Shown here: positions 3,098 to 32,457 of the stretch, piece by piece | Position numbering within the stretch: position 1 is the stretch's first letter | Layout: every line of letters starts with the position of its first letter | NCBI GenBank assembly: GCA_946479505.1 | Contig: CAMLGC010000025.1 | Coordinates: 1-33,946, forward strand | Source of the DNA: an uncultured Sphingomonadaceae bacterium | GTDB lineage: Bacteria; Pseudomonadota; Alphaproteobacteria; Sphingomonadales; Sphingomonadaceae | Length of the DNA: 33,946 nucleotides | Direction: 5' to 3' | Notes under the pieces: generated by a model | The model's database searches: none | Told to the model about the DNA's origin: nothing | What the model saw: the letters and a program-made list of their open reading frames with translations, nothing else | Translations under genes and position numbers: made by a program

Positions 3098-4522
3098 TCA
3101 TCCGCCGCAGCCCTGCGCGATGGTCGCGTCCGTCGGCACCGCGCGGTCGCGCTCGTTTTCCGCCAGGTGCGCGCCGTTTGGTTCGGGCCGCTCGCGCAGC
3201 CCGCGCCGGCACGCGACGTTCATCCACATCGCGATGGTGCCCGCGGACAGAATCTGCGCCAGGCTGGCGCCCATCGCGCCTTCACGCGGGATCAGGATGA
3301 ACGCGCTCGCAAAGAACAGCGCGGTTCCGGCGCCCGCGATGAGCAGGACGAGCCGGGGCTCGCCCATCGACAGCAGCACCGACCGCGAGGGCGCGGCGTT
3401 CATGATGAACATCACGCTGACGAGCTGGGCGACCAGCAAGGGCGCGATATCGGCATACCGGCTGCCCAGCGCGATATGGACGATCGGCTCGCCAAGGACA
3501 GCCGCGGCGAGGATGGCGGCGAGGCCGATGCCGCCGAGCGCCACCTGCACCCGGAATTTGAGCGCGCGCAATCGCCGCACTTCGCGGCGCGCCCACAAGC
3601 GCGCCATGTCGGGATAGAGCACCGCCTGCGCCTGTGCTCCGAATTGCTGTGCGGTCTTCGCCGTGCGCTTCGCCACGTGGTAGAATCCGGCCGCGCTCGC
3701 CCCCGCCAGCCCGCCGACCAGCAGCGTGTCGGCTTCCTGCGTCATCGTTCGCATCGTCATCGACAGGTTGGTCGACCAGGCGAACGACAGAAATCCCGGA
3801 AAATCGCGGACGAGATGGCGCGGCGAAGCGCGCAGCGGGCTGGCGATCGATTGCGCGCGCAAGGCCGCGAACCCGTACCAGACGAAGATGAGCGCGCCCG
3901 CGATCTGCGCCGCCATCCATGCGATCAGGAAGCTCTCGATGCCGAGATGGTGATACCAGCAGTAGAGCGCGAACACGATCCGGAGCGGCTGCGAGAGAAG
4001 CTGGCAATAGGCGATCGTACGAAATCTGCCGGCCAGCCGCAGCGCCGCCGTCGGCATACCGGTGATGTTGAACAAGGTTCCGATACAGCAGATGCCGACC
4101 AGGGGGAGATAGCCGCTGCCGAACCCGAGCAGCGGCGCGAACAGCGCGGCGATGGAGAAGGCCGCGCTCGCCGCGATGCAGGCGGCGGCAACGTCGAGGA
4201 TCAGGCCGTAGAGGTATAGCCGCGGAAGCTGCTCCCATCCGTTTCGTGCCTCGATTTCGCTGGCGAACTTGATGAGCGGTTGCCACGATTCGAAGCGTGC
4301 GATCCGTTCGACGAGCTGCACGAAGGTGAGGATCAGCACGAAGATGCCGAATTTCTCGGTGGTCATCGCGCGCGCCGCGATCGCGGTACTGACCAGCATC
4401 AGCCCACCGCTGATGGCGCCGCCCGACAGCAGATGCCCGATCTGGACAAGGTGATGTTGGTCGCCTCCGCCCACGCGTGCCGAGCGAAGCATTCTTGGGA
4501 AAAGGCGCGGAGCCGGTTTCAT
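3098..4522 (-). CDS. Wzx-type lipid-linked oligosaccharide flippase
   Basis: The 474-residue protein is almost wholly hydrophobic, with about twelve membrane segments separated by short basic loops. Its length and pattern are those of the polysaccharide transporter (Wzx/MATE-like, MVF superfamily) group that flips undecaprenyl-linked repeat units to the periplasm. The N-terminus has the usual amphipathic lead-in followed by a glycine-rich first helix. I chose ATG 4522 because it overlaps the stop of the upstream deacetylase gene as ATGA, a standard sign of translational coupling. A longer open frame reaching 4714 only adds arginine-rich shadow sequence. The family assignment is from hydropathy and overall resemblance, since Wzx proteins share little sequence. 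It is the only flippase candidate in the window. Confidence 0.85.
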   Translation of the reverse strand: MKPAPRLFPRMLRSARVGGGDQHHLVQIGHLLSGGAISGGLMLVSTAIAARAMTTEKFGIFVLILTFVQLVERIARFESWQPLIKFASEIEARNGWEQLPRLYLYGLILDVAAACIAASAAFSIAALFAPLLGFGSGYLPLVGICCIGTLFNITGMPTAALRLAGRFRTIAYCQLLSQPLRIVFALYCWYHHLGIESFLIAWMAAQIAGALIFVWYGFAALRAQSIASPLRASPRHLVRDFPGFLSFAWSTNLSMTMRTMTQEADTLLVGGLAGASAAGFYHVAKRTAKTAQQFGAQAQAVLYPDMARLWARREVRRLRALKFRVQVALGGIGLAAILAAAVLGEPIVHIALGSRYADIAPLLVAQLVSVMFIMNAAPSRSVLLSMGEPRLVLLIAGAGTALFFASAFILIPREGAMGASLAQILSAGTIAMWMNVACRRGLRERPEPNGAHLAENERDRAVPTDATIAQGCGG

Positions 4523-5196
4523 TCGGCTCGCCAGATCTGGCGCACGGCCATGAACGCTTCGGCCGCCTCGCAGAACACCGACGCGCCGCGACTGACCGCC
4601 AGCGCACGGATCGCCTCGATCGAGCGTTCGTCGGGAAAGACTTTGAGCTGGGTCTCGAACGCGCCGAATGCAGACAGTTTGCGATCGATCTGCCGCGATA
4701 TGTCGACGAAGCAATTGGGAACGAAGGCGGGCGTTATTCCAGGCGCGTGCCAGTTCGTTTCGGACAGCGTTTCGTAGGCGAATATCCGCGCGGGCGTGTC
4801 GCGATGTCGCGGGCGCGCCCAGACCAACGCGGCGGTGAACGCCGCCTGATGATCGAGATGGATATCGCCGATGAACGGCACAAACAGCGTGTCGGGCGCG
4901 ATCCGGGCCAGTTGATCGCCGATCCGGGCATTCAGCTCCGCGACCGGCAGCGAATCGAGCGCCGCCGCCGGCAGATCGAGCCGATGCGTCCGCCGAACGC
5001 CGAGGATGGCGTGCGCCGCGTCGGCCTCGGCCATCACCCGATCCATATAGGCGTCGGAGAAGTGCGGGGGGCAGCCACGGGTGACGATCACGACGTGAAC
5101 CTCGGCCCCCGCGTCGGCCAGCCGGGCGATCGTCCCGCCACAGCCGAGCACCTCGTCATCGGGATGCGGCGCGATGATCGCGGCGCGCCGGACCAT
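4519..5196 (-). CDS. PIG-L/LmbE-family deacetylase
   Basis: The protein of 225 residues carries the family's metal-binding PHPDDE motif at residues 10-15 and the downstream HLDH at 113-116, which supplies the third zinc ligand. PIG-L/LmbE enzymes remove N-acetyl groups from GlcNAc-containing sugars or lipids. In polysaccharide loci they often deacetylate a sugar before or after assembly. I chose ATG 5196 because it places the motif ten residues from the N-terminus, as in family members. The frame stays open to 5301 but that extension is low-complexity Arg/Asp. No strong ribosome site is visible. It is followed by the flippase with an ATGA overlap. Substrate is unknown; a GlcNAc-derived residue of the repeat unit is inferred. 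Confidence 0.85.
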   Translation of the reverse strand: MVRRAAIIAPHPDDEVLGCGGTIARLADAGAEVHVVIVTRGCPPHFSDAYMDRVMAEADAAHAILGVRRTHRLDLPAAALDSLPVAELNARIGDQLARIAPDTLFVPFIGDIHLDHQAAFTAALVWARPRHRDTPARIFAYETLSETNWHAPGITPAFVPNCFVDISRQIDRKLSAFGAFETQLKVFPDERSIEAIRALAVSRGASVFCEAAEAFMAVRQIWRAE

Positions 5197-5464
5197 CGAC
5201 AGATCGGTCAAGGCGCGGGTGCCGCGGCGATCACGCGGACGCCGGGCGCGCGCATGTCCGCCGCCGGATCGCCAATCATCATCGTCCCTGCGCCTCCACA
5301 TTCGCGAGCGTCGGTGCGACCATCGGCGCCACGCCGATCGGTCCGGGAAAGCCTAGCCAGCGGCCGATCGGAAGGAAAACGCGATTCAGGCCTCACCCTT
5401 TTTCGCCGACGACCGGCGTTCGGAGGGCACGAATGCGCGCGAATGCCGGCCGGTCCGCCCGATT

Positions 5465-5478
5465 TTGCCGGGCGGCAA
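5465..5478. promoter_or_regulatory. 14-bp operator-like palindrome
   Basis: TTGCCG, GG, CGGCAA is a perfect palindrome near the middle of the divergent region. It is followed by the relatively AT-rich TTAAGGATCATC. It could be an operator. It is unrelated to the GCAGACGCC repeats. Confidence 0.3.
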
Positions 5479-5617
5479 TTAAGGATCATCGCCCGATACG
5501 CCGGCCGCCTCCACCCCGAGCGCGCTACAACCGCACCGACGATCCGACGCAGCGGGAATGACGGCGTGATGAGGAATGCCGATTGCGCGAAAACCAGCGC
5601 GATGCAGCGCGCCGGCA

Positions 5618-5640
5618 CCGCCCGCCGCGGCGGCGGGCGG
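5618..5640 (+). promoter_or_regulatory. Very GC-rich hairpin just before the polymerase start
   Basis: CCGCCCGCC and GGCGGGCGG make a perfect 9-bp all-GC stem with a five-base loop. The symmetry extends to 11 bp if the loop is closed. The hairpin ends 11 nt before ATG 5652 and just before the GAGGG ribosome-site candidate (5645-5649). No T-run follows. It could slow initiation or be a by-product of GC-rich sequence. Confidence 0.4.
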
Positions 5641-5651
5641 GCGTGAGGGCG

Positions 5652-17547: not shown

Positions 17548-18287
17548 TGGTGATCGACCGCGGCCCGGCCCGGCCATCGATCACCATGGCTGCCCCGACC
17601 ACCGGCGGCGCATCGCCCTCGATCGTGATCTTCGATCGGTCGGCGTTCAACCGCAGTTGCATCGCGGCCAGCCTGACGTCGCATGACATGGCGCAGGTTC
17701 ACGCGCACGACCACGTGCGCGCCGTGCCGGCGCATATTGCGTGCGAGCTCGCGCTCTTCGTTCACCGCAATGGCGACGACCCGACCCGACTTTCCGCCGA
17801 ATTGCGGTTGGCGGCGCAGCGCTGGCCGGGCGTTCGTACCGTGGTGATGGTCGATAATGGCGGAGCGGACATGCAGTCGGTGGCGACGAAGCTGAACTAC
17901 CGACCCAGCGGCGTTCTCGCCGACGACATTGCAGCAGACCTGCTGGCGGCGGTGCTCCGTCTGGCAGGCCGCGGCTATACCATCCTCCCGCGGCCGGTGT
18001 TCGATGCGCTGGCCGATCGAGCGGGCGGCTCCGGCGAGCCGATCCCCGACGCCTGGGATGCGATCAGCGCGGAGCGGCCGCTGCTGGCTGCGAGCACCAC
18101 CCGCCAGCGCGAGGTCATGCGGTTGTTGCTGATGGGATTGTCGAACAAGCACATCGCGCAACGTCTGACGATCAGCGAGAGCACGGTGAAGGTGCATATC
18201 CGCGCGATCATGAACCTGTTGAATGTCGAAAATCGGACCCAGATCGTCGTGCGCCTGATGCGCGCGAGCAGCGAGGGGCATGGCTGA
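17547..18287 (+). CDS. LuxR-type regulator with degenerate receiver-like domain
   Basis: The 246-residue protein has a C-terminal LuxR/FixJ helix-turn-helix (about 184-236: TTRQREVMRLLLMGLSNKHI, then ISESTVKVHI). The N-terminal ~150 residues follow the outline of a response-regulator receiver (IVIFDRSAFNRSCIAASL resembles the start of NarL-type receivers). The strand that should end in the phospho-accepting Asp reads ELALFVHRN, with no Asp. It is probably not controlled by phosphorylation, and could sense another signal or partner. ATG 17547 overlaps the kinase stop by one base and has GGAAGG 4 nt upstream. Co-translation with the tyrosine kinase suggests it reports on, or is controlled by, polymer export. 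Likely targets are promoters in this locus. Confidence 0.85.
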   Translation: MVIDRGPARPSITMAAPTTGGASPSIVIFDRSAFNRSCIAASLTSHDMAQVHAHDHVRAVPAHIACELALFVHRNGDDPTRLSAELRLAAQRWPGVRTVVMVDNGGADMQSVATKLNYRPSGVLADDIAADLLAAVLRLAGRGYTILPRPVFDALADRAGGSGEPIPDAWDAISAERPLLAASTTRQREVMRLLLMGLSNKHIAQRLTISESTVKVHIRAIMNLLNVENRTQIVVRLMRASSEGHG

Positions 18288-18312
18288 CCCATTGGCCCAT
18301 GAGGCGCGCGTC

Positions 18313-19227
18313 ATGAAACATTTCACCGATCTGCTGTCCCACCGCGCGGCCGACGATCGCGCGTCGGATTATATGATGATGTCGCTGATCCGGCAGTTCG
18401 AGAGCCGGCTGCTCGACCTGTTCAGCCAGGGCCATCTGTCGGGGACGACGCACACCTGCATCGGGCAGGAAGCCAATGCGATCGCGATGATGAGCGCGAT
18501 CGACAAGCAGATCGACACGATCTGGTCCAACCATCGCTGCCACGGCCATTTCCTGGCCTATGGCGGTGACGCGGGCCGCTTGTTCGCCGAAATCCTCGGC
18601 CGCGTCGGCGGGGTATGCGGCGGGCGCGGCGGGAGCCAGCATCTCGCGTGGCGCAATTTCTTTTCCAGCGGCATCCAGGGCGGGCTCGTCCCGCTCGGCG
18701 TGGGCACCGCCTATGCCGATCGCGACCGCGGCGCCATCACGGCGGTGTTCCTCGGCGACGGCACGATGGGCGAAGGCTATGTGTACGAAGGCCTCAATCT
18801 CGCATCGCTGTGGAACTGCCCGGTGCTGTTCGTCGTGGAGGATAACGGCATCGCGCAGACCACGCCGCGCGAGCGCGGCGTCGCCGGACGGATCGCCGAT
18901 CGCGCGAGCCCCTTCGGCATCGCTTCCGCCTCGCTCCGGTCGGTCGACGTCGACGAGCTGAAGGCGGCCGCGCGAACGGCGGTCGACTATGTCCGCGGCG
19001 AACGCAGACCCTATTGGCTGCACATCGAAACCGTCAGGCTGCGCGCGCACAGCAAGAGCGACGACACCCGCTCCGACGAGGAGCTTGCGGTGCTTCGCCG
19101 ATCCGATTGTCTCGATCTCCTGCGCGCCAAGCTGGGTGCGGAAACCGGGCTGCTCGACAGCGAGATCTCGGCCTATCTCGACATGGCGTTCGCCGCCGCG
19201 ATGGAGGGCGCCGAGCCATGCGCGTGA
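18313..19227 (+). CDS. 2-oxoacid dehydrogenase E1 component, alpha subunit
   Basis: The 304-residue protein belongs to the thiamine-diphosphate dehydrogenase E1-alpha family and has the short length of acetoin dehydrogenase AcoA. The diphosphate/magnesium-binding motif GDGTMGEG ... VVEDN spans 148-178. Upstream are HGHFLAYGGD and GGRGGSQH, and downstream LRAHSKSDDTR corresponds to the conserved active-site loop. With the beta subunit it would decarboxylate a 2-oxoacid and pass the acyl group to a lipoyl arm. ATG 18313 has GAGG 8 nt upstream; ATG 18280 overlaps the regulator gene but its site is too close. The gene overlaps E1-beta by 10 bases. The 2-oxoacid (pyruvate or a hydroxylated analogue) is unknown. 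Confidence 0.9.
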   Translation: MKHFTDLLSHRAADDRASDYMMMSLIRQFESRLLDLFSQGHLSGTTHTCIGQEANAIAMMSAIDKQIDTIWSNHRCHGHFLAYGGDAGRLFAEILGRVGGVCGGRGGSQHLAWRNFFSSGIQGGLVPLGVGTAYADRDRGAITAVFLGDGTMGEGYVYEGLNLASLWNCPVLFVVEDNGIAQTTPRERGVAGRIADRASPFGIASASLRSVDVDELKAAARTAVDYVRGERRPYWLHIETVRLRAHSKSDDTRSDEELAVLRRSDCLDLLRAKLGAETGLLDSEISAYLDMAFAAAMEGAEPCA

Positions 19228-20153
19228 TCGATCAGATCAACACCAGCCTGCACGATTTCATGGCCGCCGACGCGGGCGCGCACCTGATCGGCGAGGACGT
19301 GCTCGACCCCTATGGCGGCGCGTTCAAGGCGACGCGCGGACTGTCGACCGCCTTTCCCGATCGGGTGCTGACCACCCCGATCTCCGAAGCCGCGATCGCC
19401 GGCGTCGCGACGGGCATGGCGCTGAAGGGCAAGCCGGTGTGCGTCGAGATCATGTTCGGCGATTTCATCACCCTATGCACCGATCAGCTCATCAATCACA
19501 TGTCCAAGCTGCCCTGGGTGTACAACGATCAGATCGAGGTGCCGGTGGTGGTGCGTGCCCCGATGGGCGGCAAGCGCGGCTACGGCGCGACGCACAGCCA
19601 GAGCCTGGAAAAGCACTTCTGCGGGGTGCCCGGCCTGACGGTGGTCGCGGTGAGCCAGTTCTCCGACATTCCTGGCATCTACGCCGCCGTGTTCGCCGCG
19701 CGCACGCCACACCTCATCATCGAGAACAAGCTGAGCTACGCGCGGCGCATCGAGGCGCGCGACCTGGCGCCGCACCGCGATCCCGATCTCGCGATCGTCA
19801 GCTATGGCGGCAGCACCGAAGTCTGCGTCGAGGCCGCCGACCGCCTCGACCGCGACGACGAGCTCGCGGTCAACGTGATCGAGGTGACGACGCTGTCGCC
19901 GTTCGACCGCGACGACCTGCGCCGCCGGATCGGCCACTGCACCTCCGTGCTGTCGGTGGAGGAAGGCGCCGACGGATGGGGCTTCGGTGCCGAAGTCGCG
20001 CGCGCGCTGATCGGTGCGCAGGGCGTGTCCTTCGCGAGCGTCACCGGCCCGTCGCATCCGATCCCGAGCGCAAAATCATGGGAAACGGCGCTGCTGCCGA
20101 GCAGCGATTCGGTCGTCGCCGCCGCGCTCGATCTGGTGCTGGACGCACGATGA
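19218..20153 (+). CDS. 2-oxoacid dehydrogenase E1 component, beta subunit
   Basis: This is a 311-residue E1-beta (transketolase-like pyrimidine-binding domain followed by a transketolase C-terminal domain). TPISEAAIAGVATGMALKG carries Glu57, the residue that activates the thiamine aminopyrimidine ring. GYGATHSQSLE carries the conserved active-site His126. Compared with pyruvate dehydrogenase, the region around 90-105 (DQLINHMSKLPWVYN) is divergent, which may mean a different substrate. ATG 19218 overlaps E1-alpha. Its own stop overlaps the next start as ATGA, so alpha, beta and the lipoyl fusion should be made in step. No E3 (dihydrolipoamide dehydrogenase) gene lies in the window, so a housekeeping E3 would have to serve. 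Confidence 0.9.
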   Translation: MRVIDQINTSLHDFMAADAGAHLIGEDVLDPYGGAFKATRGLSTAFPDRVLTTPISEAAIAGVATGMALKGKPVCVEIMFGDFITLCTDQLINHMSKLPWVYNDQIEVPVVVRAPMGGKRGYGATHSQSLEKHFCGVPGLTVVAVSQFSDIPGIYAAVFAARTPHLIIENKLSYARRIEARDLAPHRDPDLAIVSYGGSTEVCVEAADRLDRDDELAVNVIEVTTLSPFDRDDLRRRIGHCTSVLSVEEGADGWGFGAEVARALIGAQGVSFASVTGPSHPIPSAKSWETALLPSSDSVVAAALDLVLDAR

Positions 20154-21337
20154 CCGTCCCTCTCCCCGAGCCGGTCGCGACGTGCCACGCCGATGCCGAG
20201 CGCAAGGCGATCATCACCATGCCGCGGCTCAACGCCAATGAGGACGAGGCCCTGATCGCCATCATCGCGCTCGGCGAGGGCGACCCTTTCGAGCGCGACA
20301 CGCAGCTCTTCGCGATCGAGACGACCAAGGCCGCCAACGATATTCTCGCCCCTTGCTCCGGCCGAATGGCGCGGCTGCTGGTTCGCGAAGGCGACATGGT
20401 CGCGGTCGGCGCGCCGATCTGCGAGGCGTGGTTCGCCGCCGACGCATCGATCGACGATCTCGATTTCGTCTGGGCGGATACGCACGCAGGCGATGCGGCG
20501 AGCGTTGCCGAGGGACCCGCGCGCATATCGGCCAAGGCCCGCCTGCGCGCGCGCGACCTCGGCGTCGATATCGATCGGGTTCCCGCCGAGGGCGGTCAGG
20601 TGCGCGTCGAGGATGTCGAACGCTATGCCCAATCCGCCGGGGCCGAGGGGGTGGCGGCGACCCCCGCGCTCGCGGAACGGTACGCCGCCGACGATGCGGT
20701 GATCGTCGGCGCGGCGGGGCATGCCAAGGCGGTGATCGACGCGGCGCAGGGATGCGGCTTCACGATCGTCGGCGGCGTCGACGCCGCGATCGCGCCTGGC
20801 GCTGCGATCCTCGGCGAGATCGACGTGCTGGGCGACGAGACCCTGCTCGCCACGCTGCGCGACCGCGGCCTGCGCACCGCGTTCGTCGGGGTCGGCGGCG
20901 CGACCTCGAACGCCGTGCGCAGGCGGGTCTTCGAGCGCCTCAAGGCAGCCGGGTTCGAGCTGCCGCCGCTGGTCGCGGCATCCGCCCACCTCGGGCTGGG
21001 CAGCACGCTGGGCGCGGCGACCTATCTGTTTCCCGGCGCCAATGTGGGGCCGGGCGTCAGCATCGGCGACAATTGCATCATCAACCAGAACGCCGTGGTC
21101 GCGCACGACAGCGCGATCGGCGATCACGTCCATCTCGCGCCCAACGCCGTCGTGGCGGGCCATTGCCGGATCGGCGACGGATCGACGCTGGGGATGTGCG
21201 CGACGCTGATCTACGCCGCCAGCATCGGCGCCGATTGCCTGATCCACAATAATGTGGCGATCACCCAGGACGTGCCCGACGGCAGCGTCGTTTCGCTAGC
21301 CCGCGCGGCCGCACTACAGCCGCGCGGCGGCGGCTGA
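20150..21337 (+). CDS. Fusion: lipoyl domain + E3-binding domain + NeuD/PglD-type acyltransferase
   Basis: The 395-residue protein joins parts normally found apart. Residues 20-95 are a lipoyl domain (ITMPRLNANEDEA, then FAIETTKA with Lys60 as the lipoylation site, then CSGRMARLLVREGD). Residues 126-160 are a peripheral subunit-binding (E3-binding) domain (ISAKARLRARDLGVDI, then VRVEDVERYA). From 183 on is a NeuD/PglD sugar acyltransferase: a Rossmann-like AVIVGAAGHAKAVID, then a left-handed beta-helix from about 280 whose NQNAVVAHDSAIGDHVHLAP carries His319, aligned with PglD's catalytic His. The usual E2 catalytic (CAT) domain is absent. I infer transfer of an acyl group from dihydrolipoyl-Lys60 to the amine of a nucleotide sugar. 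ATG 20150 overlaps the E1-beta stop (ATGA). Confidence 0.92.
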   Translation: MTVPLPEPVATCHADAERKAIITMPRLNANEDEALIAIIALGEGDPFERDTQLFAIETTKAANDILAPCSGRMARLLVREGDMVAVGAPICEAWFAADASIDDLDFVWADTHAGDAASVAEGPARISAKARLRARDLGVDIDRVPAEGGQVRVEDVERYAQSAGAEGVAATPALAERYAADDAVIVGAAGHAKAVIDAAQGCGFTIVGGVDAAIAPGAAILGEIDVLGDETLLATLRDRGLRTAFVGVGGATSNAVRRRVFERLKAAGFELPPLVAASAHLGLGSTLGAATYLFPGANVGPGVSIGDNCIINQNAVVAHDSAIGDHVHLAPNAVVAGHCRIGDGSTLGMCATLIYAASIGADCLIHNNVAITQDVPDGSVVSLARAAALQPRGGG

Positions 21338-21350
21338 GGGTGCGCGCACG

Positions 21351-22454
21351 ATGGCCACCCACCCCGCCCTCGACCAGCCGCTCCGCGCGCCGCCCCGCGT
21401 CGCCCGTCGCGCCGGTTTCAACCCGGCTGCGCACGGACTGCGCGGAATCGCGTCGTTGATGGTGTTCTGGGCCCACCTGCTCGGGGGCACCGCCGAGCAC
21501 GTCTATGCAGACAACAATTTCTATGTCGCGCTGGTCTGGGCGCCGTGGAGCTTCGGCGCGTGGGGTGTGGAGCTGTTCTTCGTCATCAGCGGCTTCGTCA
21601 TCCTGCCGAGCATCATGCGCTATTCGCTCGGCGAGTTCGCACTGCGGCGGTTCTTCAGGCTGTATCCGTTGTTCTTCGTGTTCACCCTGCTGTTCGCGGT
21701 GCTCAACGGCCTGACCAATGCCTATCCGGCGCTCAACACCTGGACCGCGATCGTGGCGGGATTCCTGTTTCTCAACCTGTTCACGCATACCGAGCAACTG
21801 ACCCCCAACGCCTGGAGCCTCACCTATGAAGTGATGTTCTATGCGCTTGCAGCGACAGGGTATTTCTTCTTCCGGCGGCACAATCGAACCGGCACGATCG
21901 TTCTCGCGCTGGCATCCGGCGCGTTCCTGTTTCGCTACCCCATCGCGATCTTCTTTCTGGCCGGGGCGGTCGTGCGGCTCGTGCATGACGCCGATGTCCG
22001 CCCCCCCGCACAGATCGCGCGACCGTTGGAAATCCTGCTGGCGGCGACATGCACACTGCTCGCCGCGACGCATCGCTTCGGCTTTTCGCAGGCCGACATG
22101 GCCAGCCCCTGGGCATGGGCGCTGATGGCGGCGACGCCCGCCTATTTCTATCTCGCAATCCAGCCCGACAGCATCAGCAGCGCCGCGTTCGGCAATCGGA
22201 CGATCGGCTATCTCGGCACGGTCAGCTACTCGCTGTACCTGATTCATCCCTATACCTATTTCGCCACGCGGGCGCTGTTCGACCGATTGGGTCTGTTCAC
22301 CGACGACTGGGCGTTGTCGATGGCGCTGTTCTTCTTCGTCGCGACCGTAGTGACGCTCGCCATGACGCATGTCGGGCACAAGCTGCTCGAGGTCGGGCCG
22401 TATCGCTGGTTCTTCAAGCAGCGGATCTATCGCGGCGCAACCGCGGTCGGTTAG
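21351..22454 (+). CDS. Acyltransferase-3 family membrane O-acyltransferase
   Basis: A 367-residue integral membrane protein of the AT3 (OafA/ExoZ) family with about ten hydrophobic segments. The family's R-x10-H motif is present as Arg31-His42 (GLRGIASLMVFWAH). FGAWGVELFFVISGF and LRRFFRLYP follow, as in ExoZ-type proteins, and NAWSLTYEVMFY matches the WSL-E-F-Y motif. It would acetylate (or acylate) sugar hydroxyls on the lipid-linked unit or nascent polymer. It starts 13 bases after the lipoyl-fusion gene, so it is probably in the same transcript. There is no fused SGNH domain, in contrast to the AT3 protein at 23536. Confidence 0.9.
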   Translation: MATHPALDQPLRAPPRVARRAGFNPAAHGLRGIASLMVFWAHLLGGTAEHVYADNNFYVALVWAPWSFGAWGVELFFVISGFVILPSIMRYSLGEFALRRFFRLYPLFFVFTLLFAVLNGLTNAYPALNTWTAIVAGFLFLNLFTHTEQLTPNAWSLTYEVMFYALAATGYFFFRRHNRTGTIVLALASGAFLFRYPIAIFFLAGAVVRLVHDADVRPPAQIARPLEILLAATCTLLAATHRFGFSQADMASPWAWALMAATPAYFYLAIQPDSISSAAFGNRTIGYLGTVSYSLYLIHPYTYFATRALFDRLGLFTDDWALSMALFFFVATVVTLAMTHVGHKLLEVGPYRWFFKQRIYRGATAVG

Positions 22455-23535: not shown

Positions 23536-25614
23536 TTGACGCGACAAAGCATCATCGTTTCACGCGACCGGGCCGATAGCCCCGTGTCGGTCGTCGTCGA
23601 CGCGCCAGCACTCGCCGTTCCGCAGGCGATCGTCGCCCGCGCGGACCGATCCGCTTACCGCGCGGACATCGACGGGCTCCGCGCGCTGGCGGTGGTGCCC
23701 GTCGTGCTGTTTCATTCCGAGTTGGGGATCGTGTCGGGCGGATTCGTCGGGGTCGACATCTTCTTCGTGATTTCGGGCTATCTCATCACGCGGCTGCTGC
23801 TCGCCGAACTCGACAGGGGCGCGCTGTCGCTGACGGGGTTCTACGAACGGCGTATCCGACGGATCTTCCCGGCGCTGTTCGTGCTGCTGATCGCCTGCAC
23901 GCTGGCGGCGGTCGTCGTCCTGCTGCCGCGCGACCTCTCCAGCTATGGGGCGAATCTCGCCGCGGCGGCGACGTCGCTGTCGAACGCGTTCCTGTGGTTC
24001 CAAGCCGACTATTTCGACGGCTCCGCCAAGCTCAAGCCACTGCTGCACACCTGGTCGCTCTCGCTCGAGGAGCAATTCTACCTGTTCTGGCCGGTGCTGC
24101 TGATCGTCCTGTGGAAAATCCCGCAACGCTGGCGCCGGCCGGTCGTCACGACGCTGGGCGCGCTCTCGTTCGCTGCGTGTATCTGGGCGACGGCGCGCTG
24201 GCCGAGCGCCGCCTTCTACCTATTGCCGTACCGGACGTGGGAGCTGCTGCTCGGCGGCGCGCTGGCGATGGGCATGATCCCTCGATGCCCGAATCGTGCG
24301 ACGGCACAGGTCGTCGCCGCCGGTGGCCTCGCGATGATCGGTTATGCGATCTTCGCGCTTTCCGAGGTGACCGCCTTTCCCGGCGCCGCAGCGGCGATCC
24401 CCTGCGTCGGTGCGGCGATGATTATTCATGCCGGCGAACAATCCCGTTCCACGGTCGTGCGACGGGCCTTGTCGCACCCGCTGGCGACGTTCGTCGGCCA
24501 GATCTCCTATTCGCTCTATCTCTGGCACTGGCCGCTGTTCGTCTTCGTCCGATACCGCATGATCGAGGAGCCGCCGGCGCAGGTGCTGGTCGTCGCCACG
24601 CTCCTCGCGCTGTTGTGCTCGATCGTGTCGTGGCGGCTCGTCGAGCTGCCGTTTCGGCGCAAGCAGGTCCTGCGCGGTCGTGCGGCGCTGTTCCGGGCGG
24701 CGGCGGCGATCATGATCTGCACGGTCGCGGCCGGTGCGGCATTGATAGCGGGCAACGGGCTTCCCTGGCGCTATTCGGCCGAAACCGTGCGATTGGCGGC
24801 CTATGCCGATCACACCAACTCATACGCGTGGTCGTGCAGCGCCGAACTGCGGCTCGATCGCGCCTGCGTGATCGGTGATCCCGCCCGGCTGCGCTACGCG
24901 TTGATCGGCGATTCGCACGCGGCCGCGCTGCGCGACGCGATGCGGCGCATCGCCGAGAGCGGGCCGGCGACGCTCTACGGCGCAGCATCGCGCTGCCCGC
25001 CGCTGCTCGGGCGCGGCACCGACTCCGGCTGTCTCGAGGCGAACCGGCAGAAGCTCGCGCTTCTCGCCGTGCATCCCGAGCTCGACACCGTCGTCATCGC
25101 CGCCCGCTGGACCTATTATTATCGCGGCCGGGCGCTCGACGCCGGGCCAGCCGAAACCAACAGCGACCTGCCGCGATTGTTCGACGATTACGGCGAGGCC
25201 CCGCCCCCGCTCGGCGCCGGTGCCCGAGAGGCGCTGACCGCCGGCATCACGCGCATGGTCGATCGCCTGCTCGCCGTTGGAAAGACGGTGGTGATCGTCT
25301 ATCCGATCCCCGAGATCGGCCACGACGTGCCCTTCACCCTCGCCCGGCTGCAGGCGAAACACGGCGACGTCGACGGCTACACCATGTCGATCGACGCCTA
25401 TCGACGGCGCGAGGCAGAAACCGCGGCGATGCTCGATCGCCTCGGCGATCATCCCCGGCTGCGGCGAGTCTATCCTGCCGATATTTTGTGCCGCACGGGT
25501 CGGTGCGTCACCGCGCTCAACGGCGTTCCGCTCTATTCCGACAGCAACCACTTGAGCGCCGCGGGCGCCCGCCTACTCGCGCCCGCCATCGCGCATGCGG
25601 CCGCCGACCGATGA
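23536..25614 (+). CDS. Acyltransferase-3 / SGNH-domain fusion O-acetyltransferase
   Basis: A protein of up to 692 residues. Its N-terminal AT3 membrane domain has about ten segments and R-x10-H as Arg49-His60 (GLRALAVVPVVLFH), plus FYERRIRRIFPALF and WSLSLEEQFYLFWP. The C-terminal SGNH hydrolase-like periplasmic domain has GDSH (nucleophile Ser460) and SDSNH (Asp669, His672). This is the OafB/OatA-like two-step arrangement: AT3 passes the acetyl group across the membrane and SGNH places it on the sugar. The start is uncertain. TTG 23536 opens the frame, GTG 23584 is an alternative, and neither has a strong site. A 17-codon out-of-frame ORF starts at ATG 23529. The gene ends only 14 bp from the convergent oxygenase-like gene. 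Confidence 0.88.
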   Translation: MTRQSIIVSRDRADSPVSVVVDAPALAVPQAIVARADRSAYRADIDGLRALAVVPVVLFHSELGIVSGGFVGVDIFFVISGYLITRLLLAELDRGALSLTGFYERRIRRIFPALFVLLIACTLAAVVVLLPRDLSSYGANLAAAATSLSNAFLWFQADYFDGSAKLKPLLHTWSLSLEEQFYLFWPVLLIVLWKIPQRWRRPVVTTLGALSFAACIWATARWPSAAFYLLPYRTWELLLGGALAMGMIPRCPNRATAQVVAAGGLAMIGYAIFALSEVTAFPGAAAAIPCVGAAMIIHAGEQSRSTVVRRALSHPLATFVGQISYSLYLWHWPLFVFVRYRMIEEPPAQVLVVATLLALLCSIVSWRLVELPFRRKQVLRGRAALFRAAAAIMICTVAAGAALIAGNGLPWRYSAETVRLAAYADHTNSYAWSCSAELRLDRACVIGDPARLRYALIGDSHAAALRDAMRRIAESGPATLYGAASRCPPLLGRGTDSGCLEANRQKLALLAVHPELDTVVIAARWTYYYRGRALDAGPAETNSDLPRLFDDYGEAPPPLGAGAREALTAGITRMVDRLLAVGKTVVIVYPIPEIGHDVPFTLARLQAKHGDVDGYTMSIDAYRRREAETAAMLDRLGDHPRLRRVYPADILCRTGRCVTALNGVPLYSDSNHLSAAGARLLAPAIAHAAADR

Positions 25615-26727: not shown

Positions 26728-27936
26728 TCAGGCCGCCGCCGCGCGAAGCGCGCCGGCCACACGTATCATGTCGTCGACGTCGAACAGATGATCGACCGCG
26801 AGCATCAGGTTGCGCGCGCCGACGCGCGCAGCGACCGGCAACGCTCCATCGGTCCTCGGCCGGTGGGCTCCGAACGCCGCCTCCCGGCTCATGTCCGGGC
26901 ACGATCCCGGGCCGCATGTCACGCCCTGCGCGCGCAGCGCCGCCACGACATCGTCGATCCCGCCGATCCGCGTCGGGCGGATTTGCACGTTGAACTTGTA
27001 CCAGGCGTGGGTCAGCGCGGCGGGCACGCGCGGAACCTGGATCGCGGGGTGATCGCGCAATGCAGCTTGCAGGATCGCGGCATTGGCCCGTCGCCGCCGC
27101 AACCAGCCCGGCAACTTGACGAGCTGGCGCCGGCCGATCGCGGCCTGCATTTCGGTCAATCTGAAATTGCTGCCGAAACTGTCGTGGACGTAGCGAAACC
27201 CGCTGCCCGCCTCGCACGCCAGCTTATCCGGATTCTTGCCGTGGTCCTTATAGGCCCAGGCGCGCAGCCACCGGTCGCGATCGGACGTGGTCACCATGCC
27301 TCCCTCGCCGCCGATCGACATGATCTTGTCGGTGCAAAAGGAAAAGGCGGCGATGTCGCCGAAGCTGCCGACCCGGCGATCGCCGATCGCGGCGCCGTGC
27401 GCCTGCGCGCAATCTTCCACCAGGAACAGCCCCGCGCGGTCGCACAATGTTTTCAGCGCGGCCATGTCGCAGGGCCATCCGGCCAGATGGACGCCGATGA
27501 TCGCACGGCTGCGCGCCGACACCATGCGCGCAGCGGATGATACCGAGATGGTGTGCGATATCGGATCGATGTCGGCGAAGACCGGGGTCGCACCGACGGC
27601 GATCACGCAACTGACGGTGGCGAAGAAGCTGCGCGCGGGAACGATGACCTCGTCGCCCGGACCTATGCCCAGCGCGCGCAACGCGAGTTCGAGCGCCAGC
27701 GTGCCGTTGGCGACGGCGATCGCATGATCCACGCCGACGAAGCGGGCGAACTCCTCCTCGAACGCGCGCACCTGCTCGCCGTGGACGAGCGCGTTGACGC
27801 GACCGCTGGCCAGCACGGCCATGGCGGCGTCGATCTCGTCGGGCTCGTGGCGCGGCCAGCGCGAAGCGAGCGAGCGCAGCGGCTCGACCGGCTCGAATCG
27901 TAGGACGTCGCTCGCTCGCAGTTTCGTCGCCATCAT
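26728..27936 (-). CDS. DegT/DnrJ/EryC1/StrS-family sugar aminotransferase
   Basis: A PLP enzyme of 402 residues. It has VANGTLALELALRAL (phosphate-binding strand-turn), GDEVIVPARSFFATV, EDCAQAHGA with Asp175 that contacts the pyridine nitrogen, and FSFCTDKIMSIGGEGGM with the Schiff-base Lys204. These are hallmarks of nucleotide-sugar C3/C4 aminotransferases (PglE, ArnB, DesV group). Following the 4,6-dehydratase gene by 27 bp, it should convert the 4-keto-6-deoxy sugar to a 4-amino sugar using glutamate as donor. ATG 27936 has GGGG 5 nt upstream; TTG 27939 and ATG 27933 flank it. The product amine is the natural substrate of the NeuD/PglD domain at 20150 or of the formyltransferase at 31543. 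Confidence 0.93.
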   Translation of the reverse strand: MMATKLRASDVLRFEPVEPLRSLASRWPRHEPDEIDAAMAVLASGRVNALVHGEQVRAFEEEFARFVGVDHAIAVANGTLALELALRALGIGPGDEVIVPARSFFATVSCVIAVGATPVFADIDPISHTISVSSAARMVSARSRAIIGVHLAGWPCDMAALKTLCDRAGLFLVEDCAQAHGAAIGDRRVGSFGDIAAFSFCTDKIMSIGGEGGMVTTSDRDRWLRAWAYKDHGKNPDKLACEAGSGFRYVHDSFGSNFRLTEMQAAIGRRQLVKLPGWLRRRRANAAILQAALRDHPAIQVPRVPAALTHAWYKFNVQIRPTRIGGIDDVVAALRAQGVTCGPGSCPDMSREAAFGAHRPRTDGALPVAARVGARNLMLAVDHLFDVDDMIRVAGALRAAAA

Positions 27937-27963
27937 CAAAGCCCCATCTGGCGCCGCGCGCCG

Positions 27964-30057
27964 TCACCCTGCCGACATCAGCCGCCCGTCGTCGTTGTGC
28001 GGCCCGCGCGGTGCGTGCTCGCCGAACGGTGCGCTCATGTCGGCGCTGCCGTTGGGAAGCTTCACCAGATGATGGACAATCCGGCAGACCTCGGAATCGT
28101 CCTCCTCCGCAACCAGTTGATCGAGCCGCCGGATCGCCCGCGTGATGAGCGGCAGCGGGATCGAGGGTGAATGGGCCTCGAAGATGCGCGCGATCTGCGA
28201 TTCGACCTGCTGTTCGCAGCTATCGAACAGCTCCTCGTAGAGTTTCTCGCCCGGCCGCAGCCCGACGAAGCGGATCGCGATATCGACATTGAGTTCCAGC
28301 CCGGCGAGCAGGATCATCTGCCGTGCCATGTCGGCGATGCGCACCGGCGTGCCCATATCGAGCACGTAGATGTTGCCGCGATCGGTGTCGTTCTTGAGCG
28401 CGGAGGAGCTGCTCTGCAGGATCAACTGCACGGCTTCCTTCACGGTCATGAAGAATCGGGTGATGTCCGGATGGGTCACCGTCAGGTCGCGGCCCTCGGC
28501 GATCTGGCGCTTGAAGAGCGGCACGATCGAACCGCTCGATCCCAGCACGTTGCCGAACCGCACGGTGATGAAGCGGGGCGCGTCCGCGTCATCGATGCCG
28601 CACAGGTCGAGCGCCTGGCAGTAAAGCTCCCCAAGTCGCTTGGTCGATCCCATCATGCCGACGGGATTGACCGCCTTGTCGGTCGATACCTGCACCATGG
28701 CGCGCACGCCGAATTCGCACACGGCGTCCGCCACGTTGCGGGTGCCGATGACATTGGTGTGGACGCCCGCGCATGGATTGGCCTCGACCATCGGCACATG
28801 CTTGAGCGCGGCGGCGTGGAAAACGAACTCCGGCCGAAATCGCTCGAATGCCGCCCGCACCGCCTTGCTCTGCCGGATCGAGCACAGTGCCGGATGAAAG
28901 ACGATTCCGGGGAATTGCTCCCGAACGTCCATCTCGATCGTGTACAATGCGTGTTCGGCATGATCGAGAAGCACGATCTCGGCGGGGCCGAAACTGGCGA
29001 GCTGCTTCACCAACTCGCCGCCGATCGTTCCACCCGCACCGGTGACGAGAACGCGCGCGCCGCGAAACATGTCGGCAACGAGTTTGCGCTCCATCGTATA
29101 TTCGGGGCGGCCGAGCAATTGCGCCACCGGCAGCCCTTCGATGTCGATCTTCGGGCTGGCGCGCAGCAACTGACGGCAGGGATCGGTGACGCGGCCCAGC
29201 TCGAGCCCGAGATTGCGGGCGCGGCCGATCAGCCGCGACCGCTCGGCGAAGGCGAGCGAGTGGCCGTCGTCGCGCAGGATCAACGCCTGCGGCTTTTGGC
29301 CGCGCTCCTCCAGCATCGCGACCGCACCCGGCAGCAGCTCCGCGCCCCCGAGAACCGGCACGCCCGACAGTCGGTCGATCGGATCGCCCTTGTCGGGCAG
29401 CAGCACGCCAACGACATGCAGGTTCGAGCTATGATCGGCCCGGATCAGTTCGATCACCGACGACGCCCAGTCGGGCGGCCCCAGCAGCAGCACGTGCCGC
29501 CGTTCGGTCGCGCGCACCCAATCGATGCCCGGCGAAACATGGGTCTGGCGTCGTTCGCGCAGATGCCGCCGGACGACGCGCATTGATCCCATCACCGCGG
29601 CGAGCGTCGATCCCTGCATTACTCCGACCGCGATCAGCACCGCACCCAGCGAGCGCATCGCCGGAACCGCGAGCGCCGCGATCCAGGCCGCCGTCAGCCC
29701 CAGCGCGATCACCTTCGCCAGGAAGATGCAATCGGCGAAGCGCAGAAAGCGCCAGCTCCGTCGGTAGAGCCCGGCGAAGAAGAAGACCGACGTCGCGATC
29801 GTCGCGAACAGCAGATAGATTGTCGCCTGCCACAACGGATCGCCTGTCCGTGCCTGATCCACGAATTGCAGCGCCATCGCCATCGTCGCGGCGACCGCGA
29901 TGAAATCGAGCGCCATGACGATCGCGAGCCGCAGCGTCTTGCGCAGCGACGGCGATCGGCCCGCCGACGGCCGTCGCGCGACACGATCCCATAGCGACCG
30001 CGGCGCCTCTAAACGCATGCTGTCGGGGGATGCCGCGTCCACTGTCAGGTTGGGCAT
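27964..30057 (-). CDS. FlaA1/CapD-type membrane nucleotide-sugar 4,6-dehydratase (PglF/WbpM-like)
   Basis: The 697-residue protein has an N-terminal membrane part with four hydrophobic segments (about 43-150), a CoA-binding-like Rossmann region (about 185-300) and a catalytic SDR domain. The NAD loop VTGAGGTIGGE is at 338-348, and STDKAVNP and MMGSTKR (about 458-474) give the Thr/Asp/Lys and Met-x-x-x-Lys triad in which Met replaces the usual Tyr. This is the long membrane form seen in PglF and WbpM, which turn UDP-GlcNAc into UDP-4-keto-6-deoxy-GlcNAc. The start at 30057 has GAGG six bases upstream. It leads the three-gene minus-strand operon. Residues are consistent with retained activity; a 5-epimerising variant cannot be excluded. 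Confidence 0.93.
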   Translation of the reverse strand: MPNLTVDAASPDSMRLEAPRSLWDRVARRPSAGRSPSLRKTLRLAIVMALDFIAVAATMAMALQFVDQARTGDPLWQATIYLLFATIATSVFFFAGLYRRSWRFLRFADCIFLAKVIALGLTAAWIAALAVPAMRSLGAVLIAVGVMQGSTLAAVMGSMRVVRRHLRERRQTHVSPGIDWVRATERRHVLLLGPPDWASSVIELIRADHSSNLHVVGVLLPDKGDPIDRLSGVPVLGGAELLPGAVAMLEERGQKPQALILRDDGHSLAFAERSRLIGRARNLGLELGRVTDPCRQLLRASPKIDIEGLPVAQLLGRPEYTMERKLVADMFRGARVLVTGAGGTIGGELVKQLASFGPAEIVLLDHAEHALYTIEMDVREQFPGIVFHPALCSIRQSKAVRAAFERFRPEFVFHAAALKHVPMVEANPCAGVHTNVIGTRNVADAVCEFGVRAMVQVSTDKAVNPVGMMGSTKRLGELYCQALDLCGIDDADAPRFITVRFGNVLGSSGSIVPLFKRQIAEGRDLTVTHPDITRFFMTVKEAVQLILQSSSSALKNDTDRGNIYVLDMGTPVRIADMARQMILLAGLELNVDIAIRFVGLRPGEKLYEELFDSCEQQVESQIARIFEAHSPSIPLPLITRAIRRLDQLVAEEDDSEVCRIVHHLVKLPNGSADMSAPFGEHAPRGPHNDDGRLMSAG

Positions 30058-30367: not shown

Positions 30368-31558
30368 ATGAGGATCCTCGTTCATTCCAGCCTCGCCTAT
30401 TCGCTCGTCAATTTCCGCGGAGCGCTGCTCCACGCCCTGGTGGCCGCCGGCCATGACGTGATCGCCACGGCGCCCGATCGCGACCCGGAGGTCGAAGACC
30501 GCCTCGCATCGATGGGAATCGTGTTCGTGCAGATCCCGATGGCGCGTGCCGCAATCAGTCCGCTCGCCGATCTGTTGATCCTGGCGGCCTATATTCGGCT
30601 GATGTGGCGGTATCGGCCCGACGCGGTGCTCGCCTATACGCAGAAGCCGATCATCTATGGCGGGCTTGCCGCCCGCTTGTTCCCGCGATCGCGCTTTCAC
30701 GTCATCATGAGCGGCCTCGGGTACGTCTTCAGCGCCGAAGCCGATCATCGGCCTCGGCTGCGCGCGCTGGTCAGCCTGATCTACCGTGCGGGGGTCCGTT
30801 CGGCGCGGACCGTTTTCGTGTTCAATGCCGATGATCGCGCCGCGATGCTGCGCCACCGCATCATCACGCACGACCATTATGTCGTGCAGGTGCCGGGATC
30901 GGGGATCGACATCGGCCATTTCGTGGACCAGCCGCTGCCCGAGGGACCACCGGCGGTGCTGATGGTCGCGCGGCTGATGCGCGACAAGGGCGTCCATGAT
31001 TTCGTCGAGGCGGCACGCATCGTGCGGGCGCGCTCGCCCGACGTGCGGTTCCGGATTCTCGGCCGTCTCGAACGCGACAATCCGACCGCGGTGTCGCCGG
31101 ACGAATGTCGGCGCTGGTCCGATGAGGGGTTGATCGAGTTTCTTCCCGAAACCCGCGACGTCCGCCCCGATCTGGCAGCGTGCACGTTGTTCGCGCTTCC
31201 CTCTTTCTATCGCGAGGGTCTGCCGCGCACGATCCTCGAGGCGCTGGCCAGCGGGCGCCCCGTGATCACGACCGATCTTCCCGGCTGTCGCGACGCGATC
31301 GTCGATGGCGAGAACGGGCGCCTGGTGCCGCCACGCGATCCGCGCCGGCTCGCGGACGCCATTCTCGAGATGCTGGCCGATCGGCCAAGGCTGCGCGCGA
31401 TGGCGGCAGCCGCACGGCGCCGCGCGGTCACGCAGTACGATGTCCGCGACGTCAACCGCGCGCTGATCGGCTGCATGGGGCTCGATACCGCGTCTCCCCC
31501 GCGCGGCAGCGTGGGCGAACGCCCCCGGGCCGCGAAAGATTCATGCCCGAGCTCGTGA
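30368..31558 (+). CDS. GT4-family glycosyltransferase, PglA-like
   Basis: A GT-B protein of 396 residues. MRILVHSSLAYSLVNFRGALL resembles the N-terminus of the PglA/WbnK-type enzymes, which add HexNAc to undecaprenyl-PP-bacillosamine. HVIMSGLGYVFSAEADH and VLMVARLMRDKGVHDFVEAARI follow. The E-x7-E motif lies in FYREGLPRTILEALASGRPVITTD. ATG 30368 sits at the family's usual N-terminus. The gene overlaps the formyltransferase start by 16 bp. PglA-like second-sugar transfer is inferred from resemblance and from the PglC-like initiator two genes on; specificity is not proven. Confidence 0.88.
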   Translation: MRILVHSSLAYSLVNFRGALLHALVAAGHDVIATAPDRDPEVEDRLASMGIVFVQIPMARAAISPLADLLILAAYIRLMWRYRPDAVLAYTQKPIIYGGLAARLFPRSRFHVIMSGLGYVFSAEADHRPRLRALVSLIYRAGVRSARTVFVFNADDRAAMLRHRIITHDHYVVQVPGSGIDIGHFVDQPLPEGPPAVLMVARLMRDKGVHDFVEAARIVRARSPDVRFRILGRLERDNPTAVSPDECRRWSDEGLIEFLPETRDVRPDLAACTLFALPSFYREGLPRTILEALASGRPVITTDLPGCRDAIVDGENGRLVPPRDPRRLADAILEMLADRPRLRAMAAAARRRAVTQYDVRDVNRALIGCMGLDTASPPRGSVGERPRAAKDSCPSS

Positions 31559-32457
31559 TCGTCGGCGCCGTGGAGAGCACGGAGGTGGCAATCAAGGCCG
31601 CGGCGCGCGCCGAAAGCTGGCGGGTCCGCCTGATCGTGACGCTCCCGCCCGAGCGCGCGGGGCGCCATTCCGATTTCTGCGATCTCGCGGCCGCCGCGGA
31701 AAGCGCGGGCGCGGAGCTCGCCTACGCCGTGCGGATCAACGATCCCGAGATCGTCGATCGCATCCGCACCGCCCGTCCCGACCTCATTCTGGTGGTCGGC
31801 TGGTCTCAGATCTGCGGCCCTGCCTTTCTGGATATACTGCCGGCCGGGGTGCTCGGCTATCATCCCGCCGCTTTGCCGCGACTTCGCGGCCGCGCGGCCA
31901 TTCCCTGGACGATCCTGCACGCCGAACCGATCACCGCGGGCACCTTGTTCTGGATCGATGCCGGAATGGACAGCGGCGCGATTCTGGAACAGCGCTTCTT
32001 CCATGTCGCGCCCAACGAAACGGCGCGCTCCCTCTATTGCAAACACATGCGCGCGCTCGATGCGATGGTGGTAAGCGCGCTCGCCCGGATCCAGGCCGGC
32101 GACGCCGCCGGGACGGTCCAGGACGAGCGATGCGCCACTTATGGCGCGCGTCGAACGCCCGCGGACGGGGCGATCGACTGGGCAATGTCCGCCGCCGTCA
32201 TCGATCGCCTGATTCGCGCGGTCGGCCGGCCCTATCCGGGCGCCTTCACGCATCACGGCGAGGGGCGCATCACCTTGTGGGAAGCGAGCCCGCACGCCGA
32301 CGATTCTCGCTATCTCGGCGCGCCGGGCCAGATCGTGCGGCGCGACGACGAGGCGTTCTGGATCAAGACGGGGGATGGCCTGCTGCGAGTCGACAATTGG
32401 GATGGCCCGACGGGATCGGCGCCCCCGTTGCACGCGATACTGGGCCGAAATGCCTGA
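31543..32457 (+). CDS. Formyltransferase-family protein (sugar N-formyltransferase-like)
   Basis: The 304-residue protein has the formyl-transferase N-terminal fold (ELVIVGAVESTEVAI, then LILVVGWSQICGP) and the folate-binding/active-site stretch GYHPAALPRLRGRAAIPW. The catalytic triad of ArnA/WlaRD-type enzymes is Asn-x-His...Asp. Here His107 and Asp143 are kept with the same 36-residue spacing, but the Asn position is Gly105. The C-terminal part (about 215-304) fits a formyl_trans_C-like barrel. It could formylate the 4-amino sugar with 10-formyl-tetrahydrofolate, or a shifted residue may do the Asn's job. ATG 31543 is chosen for its 16-bp overlap with the glycosyltransferase. Upstream in-frame sequence is shadow coding. 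Confidence 0.82.
   Translation: MPELVIVGAVESTEVAIKAAARAESWRVRLIVTLPPERAGRHSDFCDLAAAAESAGAELAYAVRINDPEIVDRIRTARPDLILVVGWSQICGPAFLDILPAGVLGYHPAALPRLRGRAAIPWTILHAEPITAGTLFWIDAGMDSGAILEQRFFHVAPNETARSLYCKHMRALDAMVVSALARIQAGDAAGTVQDERCATYGARRTPADGAIDWAMSAAVIDRLIRAVGRPYPGAFTHHGEGRITLWEASPHADDSRYLGAPGQIVRRDDEAFWIKTGDGLLRVDNWDGPTGSAPPLHAILGRNA

Follow-up and report, generated by a model that had tools for sequence, protein, structure and literature searches.

Can the lipoyl arm of a 2-oxoacid dehydrogenase-like complex hand its acyl group directly to a sugar amine, so that no coenzyme A (CoA) ester is formed on the way? The question is raised by one open reading frame (ORF) of a polysaccharide gene cluster in positions 1–33,946 of contig CAMLGC010000025.1 from an uncultured Sphingomonadaceae bacterium (hereafter, the window). 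The original prediction, made from the sequence alone, had read this ORF as a lipoyl domain, a peripheral subunit-binding domain (PSBD) and a NeuD/PglD sugar acyltransferase in a single chain, the acyltransferase standing in place of the E2 catalytic domain. Here, we find that the fusion is real, that it is conserved in a protein family associated with a distinct type of E1 pair (E1alpha and E1beta), and that the window encodes amino-sugar enzymes. We estimate at roughly two in three the probability that E1 and the fusion form a complex that transfers acyl groups from lipoyl to a sugar amine; this figure, like the worded likelihoods below, is a judgement and was not computed.

Domain architecture and distribution of the fusion

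The start codon of the fusion overlaps the stop codon of E1beta (coordinates in Table 1), and a mechanically called ORF from 18989 (782 aa) is merely an upstream extension of the same frame across E1alpha and E1beta. The predicted domain order is supported. The lipoyl model PF00364 is matched at 0.01 by all 121 aligned relatives, and the predicted lipoylation site, Lys60, sits between strands 52–57 and 62–66 of a predicted structure model. The C-terminal half is of the NeuD type with a left-handed-helix (LbH) fold (PglD_N at residues 184–264, 5.9e-9; Hexapep, 2.4e-17), with no match at 0.01 to the CAT-like E2 domain PF00198 (2-oxoacid_dh). For the NeuD model TIGR03570, the window protein scores 152.6 bits, under the cut-off of 160.8 that two of the three relatives scored (from genomes G001 and G002) pass. 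His319, the base by homology, is aligned with the residue mutated in the PerB H141N and H141A chains. Gly337 follows His319 at the spacing that the accessible text of PMC8040287 gives for Pcryo_0637, in which Gly160 lies 18 residues from His142.

An E3-binding domain is upheld by an HHalign comparison of the PSBD columns of the family (121 rows) with 15 canonical PSBDs (probability 97%, E 1.3e-10, a single comparison; the 15 are those of 22 E2 ORFs that fitted the search pattern, the other seven being omitted), and by a match of the window protein to the pyruvate dehydrogenase (PDH) E2 PSBD chain 1w4i (residues 129–172, 4.9e-4). It is, however, diverged, with no Pfam PSBD match at 0.01 in the window protein and E3_binding called in 32 of the 121 relatives at the same threshold.

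Protein searches returned 38 and 423 relatives, and the best 120 of the 423 were used, which makes them a top-scoring and not a random sample. Together with the loci described below, at least 142 proteins of the lipoyl-NeuD type (each at least 350 aa, the window protein included) were collected, all of which carry the lipoyl motif E[TS][TS]K. In the conservation alignment, which comprises 121 of the 142, Lys60, His319 and Gly337 never vary and Asp320 is kept in 119, so that both active-centre residues named at the outset, Lys60 and His319, hold throughout. The existence of 142 full-length proteins from several sources, with invariant residues in both halves, rules out a gene-joining error, a frameshift, a chance ORF or another artefact (a probability we regard as negligible), and a frameshift or assembly join, the danger flagged in advance, was not borne out; the domain architecture is confirmed. 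In one open-licence library, we found no publication on lipoyl-NeuD proteins and no described protein with this domain order, in line with the claim of novelty. Where source databases name the relatives, they use 'biotin/lipoyl-containing protein', 'NeuD/PglB/VioB family sugar acetyltransferase', 'sugar O-acyltransferase', 'PglD-related sugar-binding protein', 'acetyltransferase EpsM' or 'hypothetical protein'.

The lipoyl-NeuD module is rare and patchy. Full-length proteins were found in 2/385 genomes from the class to which the Mesorhizobium genome belongs, 2/397 from its order (one shared with the class count), 8/400 Chloroflexota genomes (the phylum of the Anaerolineaceae metagenome-assembled genome [MAG]; G1081 and seven genomes of the main type) and 2/369 from the class that includes the Chromatiales MAG. 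These counts are lower bounds, because genome G937 (locus L209) was missed at the 1e-55 cut-off of the Chloroflexota scan. The nearest named relatives of the window fusion are from sphingomonads (Stakelama, Sphingomonas, Altererythrobacter), and the window is the one sphingomonad locus among those that were read. No relative of the fusion was found among viral contigs, leaving a viral origin unsupported, and 56 plasmid records matched the fusion, none of them across >80% of the query.

A distinct type of E1 accompanies the fusion

Both E1 subunits of the window are closest to PDH among solved structures (PDH E1alpha for one; PDH or 2-oxoacid dehydrogenase beta for the other), with E1alpha scoring 219.8 bits for TIGR03182, under the cut-off of 393.85. 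Outside the window, 15 loci with a lipoyl-NeuD ORF were read (L001–L004, L011, L144–L153), and in 14 of them the E1alpha and E1beta genes immediately precede the fusion on its own strand, at a distance of <1 kb (L002 and L004 have an opposite-strand ORF within this gap), which bears out the predicted tie to an E1 pair. In L153 (10840–12828), E1alpha and E1beta are themselves fused into a single 662-aa ORF adjoining the lipoyl-NeuD gene. Fusion-linked E1alpha proteins are 47–58% identical to that of the window, and housekeeping-type E1alpha proteins, mostly from the same genomes, are 28–36% identical. In trees of both subunits, a 100/100 branch splits off the 15 fusion-linked E1s from the 11 and 12 others; the single-chain E1-like proteins of L164 (806 aa) and L166 (805 aa) were omitted from these trees, and L155, L157–L162 and L173 gave no E1alpha or E1beta match.

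A syntenic slot in Chloroflexota genomes occurs with and without these genes. G947 and G979 share the arrangement NAD-epimerase, MPG, E1alpha, E1beta, lipoyl-PSBD-NeuD, bactofilin and proS (names by eye), and G1122 agrees with it up to E1alpha, where the contig stops. The slot of G995 (L154 and L113, which are one gene) reads NAD-epimerase, MPG, NeuD, bactofilin and proS (names by eye), with neither E1 nor lipoyl-PSBD matches in the slot at 1e-6; NeuD likewise adjoins bactofilin in L112 and L116 (3.6 kb pieces), with no E1 or lipoyl matches. E1alpha, E1beta and lipoyl-PSBD are thus present or absent as a single block that ends within the NeuD gene, which argues that the E1 and lipoyl-PSBD parts serve the NeuD domain. 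The G995-type slot also shows that such NeuD proteins can dispense with the block. We consider it very probable that E1, lipoyl domain and NeuD domain constitute one functional complex.

We also searched the window E1beta in the same 400 Chloroflexota genomes and read ten of the first eleven loci lacking a known fusion (one of two in G1100 was skipped). Among the ten, lipoyl-LbH proteins are encoded in L208 and L209 and lipoyl-CAT proteins in L205, L206 and L212; L213 has an ordinary E2, L211 has an E1alpha that bears a lipoyl domain, and the remaining three (L207, L210, L214) showed no lipoyl partner. In a 36-row tree, the fusion-linked E1s and those of L205–L207 and L212 form one 100/100 clade in which L153 pairs with L205, and the E1s of L208–L211, L213 and L214 are on the housekeeping side. 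The lipoyl-CAT genes (L205, 2019–5364; L206, 4109–7171; L212, 4139–7215) have E1s of the fusion type, and their lipoyl domains start like that of the window fusion (P-x-x-N-x-N) ahead of a CAT-like E2 domain; L207 has fusion-like E1s and no readable partner. By eye, L206 adjoins a gene resembling those for nonribosomal peptide synthetases (NRPS) and L205 adjoins glycosyltransferase-like genes. In L209 (4645–8885), a lipoyl-NeuD protein that keeps GVPAK is in a row with housekeeping-side E1alpha, E1beta and DegT; in L208 (4000–7546), lipoyl-PSBD is joined to an LbH part that looks different (by eye), next to a housekeeping-side E1 pair and near a DegT gene. L211 (3665–5155) carries its lipoyl domain on the N terminus of E1alpha (496 aa), and E1beta comes after it.

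Two groupings of these E1s were rejected. A single clade of all lipoyl-LbH-linked E1s failed the approximately unbiased (AU) test (p 7.7e-16), and a closed clade of main-type fusion-linked E1s, which held against housekeeping E1s alone, fell when the E1s of L205–L207 and L212 joined the comparison (AU p 1.7e-7); both p-values are descriptive, since the groups were defined after the matches were known. The acceptor domain behind the fusion E1 clade has therefore changed, and lipoyl-LbH proteins accompany more than one kind of E1, implying that the arrangement arose repeatedly or that E1s were exchanged.

The lipoyl-CAT loci may bear on the identity of the acyl group. According to the accessible text of PMC6335953, QncN/QncL/QncM and the homologue SclQ1-4 make and attach a C2 glycolicacyl unit using E1-like proteins, a lipoyl/acyltransferase protein and an acyl carrier protein (ACP), so that the acyl group goes to a non-CoA acceptor. 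The statement in the original prediction that E2 proteins pass acyl groups to CoA is therefore incomplete, and QncN/QncL-type transfer to ACP is the nearest mechanistic precedent for the fusion, although those systems have a usual catalytic acyltransferase and an ACP acceptor where the fusion has a NeuD half and, as proposed, a sugar. It is possible that L205, L206 and L212 are QncN/QncL relatives. The fusion-type E1 may, along the lines suggested for QncN/QncL-type systems, take a glycolyl unit from hydroxypyruvate or a ketose phosphate and give N-glycolyl sugars. This is consistent with the shared 100/100 clade, one member of which (L206) is near the NRPS-like gene, but both E1 subunits are nearest PDH among solved structures, and the E1 tree held no QncN or QncL sequence, which makes their membership of the clade a guess. 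We rank acetyl as the likeliest acyl group, at slightly under even odds, with glycolyl the second named candidate and rather doubtful; some acyl group other than these two is marginally less doubtful than glycolyl.

Proposed transfer to an amino sugar and the place of CoA

In the proposed mechanism, E1alpha, E1beta and the fusion would assemble into a 2-oxoacid-dehydrogenase-like complex in which the NeuD/PglD acyltransferase replaces the CoA-acylating E2 core. E1 would decarboxylate a 2-oxoacid (or ketose-type donor) on thiamine diphosphate and reductively acylate the lipoyl group on Lys60. NeuD/PglD relatives are trimeric, and the lipoyl domain, on its flexible linkers, would swing to the cleft between LbH subunits, the usual site of CoA thioesters, where the amine of a nucleotide sugar would attack the thioester, His319 serving as the base and Gly337 forming the oxyanion hole. 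The dihydrolipoyl group would then be re-oxidised by a housekeeping lipoamide dehydrogenase docked on the PSBD. Outside the window, genes for lipoamide dehydrogenase and for LipA (above cut-off) are present in 13/13 genomes having a lipoyl-NeuD gene.

The candidate acceptor is indicated by two neighbouring genes (Table 1). The closest structure to the DegT/DnrJ aminotransferase, 7l7x, is presumably Pcryo_0638, given that its accession falls next to 7l7y and 7l7z, the entries for Pcryo_0637, and WlaL, matched by the dehydratase, we take to be PglF. In the accessible text of PMC8040287, Pcryo_0638 acts on UDP-4-keto-6-deoxy-GlcNAc and Pcryo_0637, a PglD-type LbH enzyme, acetylates the product. 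Because aminotransferase and dehydratase genes are both present, and because the fusion is the sole PglD_N/hexapeptide match among the 28 window ORFs scanned, the gene content suggests UDP-2-acetamido-4-amino-2,4,6-trideoxyhexose, supplied by the PglF-like and Pcryo_0638-like enzymes, as the amine substrate; a UDP-4-amino sugar is probably the acceptor in the window. In Mesorhizobium (L003), DegT (48% identical), E1a, E1b and fusion are consecutive.

We consider direct, CoA-free transfer likely, because a dedicated E1 would acylate the lipoyl arm, no CoA-acylating E2 domain is present, and the same chain carries a thioester-accepting LbH site. LpxA and LpxD, which use acyl-ACP, illustrate that carrier proteins can supply acyl groups to an LbH fold, although their carrier is a separate ACP and that of the window protein would be a fused lipoyl domain. 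The alternative is that the lipoyl arm passes its acyl group to CoA, at a housekeeping E2 or at the NeuD site, and that the NeuD domain then uses acyl-CoA, with the fusion merely boosting local supply. The structures of PerB, PglB, PglD and Pcryo_0637 contain CoA or acetyl-CoA (by entry titles), and 11/13 lipoyl-NeuD genomes carry a classical E2 catalytic domain, as this alternative would have it. Nevertheless, the fusion itself has no PF00198 domain, genomes G002 and G1146 have no classical E2 at 1e-20 (G002 is a MAG and perhaps incomplete), and bulk acetyl-CoA, if sufficient, would make a dedicated E1 surprising; we regard such channelling through CoA as unlikely.

A C-terminal motif gave no decision between the two. 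According to the accessible text of PMC8040287, a conserved last-turn proline of Pcryo_0637 shifts from trans to cis upon CoA binding, and we took the C-terminal GxPA pattern to contain this proline. GxPA is absent in 141/142 fusions (the single match is out of register) and present in 120/120 standalone proteins (P0033 and its relatives among the matches listed). Its loss was dropped as proof of CoA independence, since 19/42 NeuD-type ORFs with no lipoyl match, Chloroflexota ones included, lack the pattern too (the fusion profile retrieved these ORFs and matched them across the NeuD part alone), which makes it non-discriminating.

Besides these 19 ORFs, several observations weigh against direct transfer to a 4-amino sugar by a dedicated complex. 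L209 and L152 encode lipoyl-NeuD proteins that retain GxPA, and CoA may still be the donor. The 7.4 kb contig of L152 (G1081) carries no E1 gene, and the fusion is found at 7/11 clade-type E1 loci seen in Chloroflexota, with lipoyl-CAT proteins instead in L205, L206 and L212. The residue after Asp211, which we take from the alignment as the counterpart of PglD Asp36, is Ala in the window fusion and Asp in just 39/121 relatives. DegT was found in the fetched DNA of just 5/15 main-type loci (window, L002, L003, L011, L153; also in L208 and L209), and the acceptor elsewhere may differ. The ArnA-like formyltransferase of the window competes as 4-N-acylator.

The last two points are those on which a different acceptor would rest, namely that transfer is direct but the formyltransferase caps the 4-amine and the fusion acylates another amino group or a hydroxyl. 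Several relatives are named sugar O-acyltransferase of the NeuD family by their sources, and 10/15 main-type loci lack DegT in the fetched DNA, in keeping with this idea; L003, on the other hand, has its DegT-E1a-E1b-fusion row with no formyltransferase match at 1e-8 in 21 kb. We consider such an acceptor improbable, though less so than the CoA route. At L144 (3480–11901) and L011 (3347–11110), the E1-E1-fusion trio is in CDP-4-keto-6-deoxyglucose-like clusters with a C-methyltransferase-like gene (by eye), and the acceptor there may differ from that of the window.

Compared to known systems, the fusion shares PglD_N, hexapeptide helix, catalytic His and oxyanion glycine (by spacing) with the NeuD/PglD/PerB N-acetyltransferases (TIGR03570; PerB 4ea7, PglD 2vhe, Pcryo_0637 7l7z) but adds N-terminal lipoyl and PSBD domains and adjoining E1 genes, scores below the TIGR03570 cut-off and lacks the C-terminal GxPA. 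With the E2 proteins of the pyruvate, 2-oxoglutarate, branched-chain 2-oxoacid and acetoin dehydrogenase complexes, it shares an E-T-x-K lipoyl domain, a PSBD and adjoining same-strand E1 genes, whereas an LbH sugar acyltransferase is found where the PF00198 domain would be. The fusion is a variant of both and a full member of neither.

If direct lipoyl-to-amine transfer operates, a glycan-modifying enzyme would take its acyl group from central carbon metabolism by a protein-bound lipoyl arm, skipping the acyl-CoA pool. This would open a route for acyl groups lacking a ready CoA thioester, tie lipoate status to surface polysaccharide chemistry, and require renaming of at least 142 proteins now called plain sugar acyltransferase, biotin/lipoyl-containing or hypothetical, where named. 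We see an even chance that amino sugars are a third acceptor class of 2-oxoacid dehydrogenase complexes, after CoA and ACP, with an amide formed without any CoA ester step. On this reading, the arrangement would probably have more than one origin (the main clade on one side, L208 and L209 with their unrelated E1s on the other), and the swap of LbH and CAT domains next to a single E1 clade would turn the lipoyl arm into a general acyl carrier that is neutral as to the acceptor.

Other genes of the window

Table 1 Coordinates of the fusion, its domains and other annotated genes in the window.
Feature	Position	Strand	Evidence
E1alpha subunit, PDH type	18280–19227	+	PF00676 4.8e-47
E1beta subunit (Transket_pyr + Transketolase_C)	19218–20153	+	PF02779 1.3e-23, PF02780 2.7e-14
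Fusion protein, lipoyl domain - PSBD - NeuD/PglD LbH acyltransferase	20150–21337	+	395 aa, ATG, without internal stop
Lipoyl domain, residues 22–91	20213–20422	+	Pfam Biotin_lipoyl PF00364, 5.5e-8
Lys60 codon, predicted lipoylation site in E-T-T-K-A	20327–20329	+	K in 121/121
Peripheral subunit (E1/E3)-binding domain, diverged, residues 122–165	20513–20644	+	HHalign; modelled helices 128–137, 153–164
NeuD/PglD acyltransferase domain, residues 180–391	20687–21322	+	PglD_N + Hexapep
His319 codon, catalytic base by homology	21104–21106	+	121/121; aligns with PerB His141
Gly337 codon, probable oxyanion-hole glycine	21158–21160	+	121/121; equivalence from spacing
Membrane acyltransferase 3	21351–22454	+	PF01757; 51% identical in Mesorhizobium locus L003
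AT3-SGNH acyltransferase	23536–25614	+	PF01757 + PF19040; 45% identical in Mesorhizobium locus L003
DegT/DnrJ sugar aminotransferase, Pcryo_0638-like	26728–27939	-	PF01041 1.1e-98; PDB 7l7x, 325 bits
PglF-like UDP-GlcNAc 4,6-dehydratase	27964–30057	-	PF02719 9.6e-105; PDB WlaL (5bju) 2.8e-74
ArnA-like N-formyltransferase, rival N-acylating enzyme	31555–32457	+	PF00551/PF02911; ArnA 3.1e-32

A sulfotransferase gene (PF00685; 22640–23473), which has no match in L003 at 1e-8, sits between the two membrane acyltransferases, and the gene content suggests a sulfated, O-acylated exopolysaccharide. Four ORFs at the start of the window (373–1764, 1894–2589, 3167–4219 and 4477–5646; 231–463 aa) have no Pfam match at 1e-4, and some of them are probably not genes. 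Opposite these four, the minus-strand ORF 3098–4714 matches polysaccharide flippase families.

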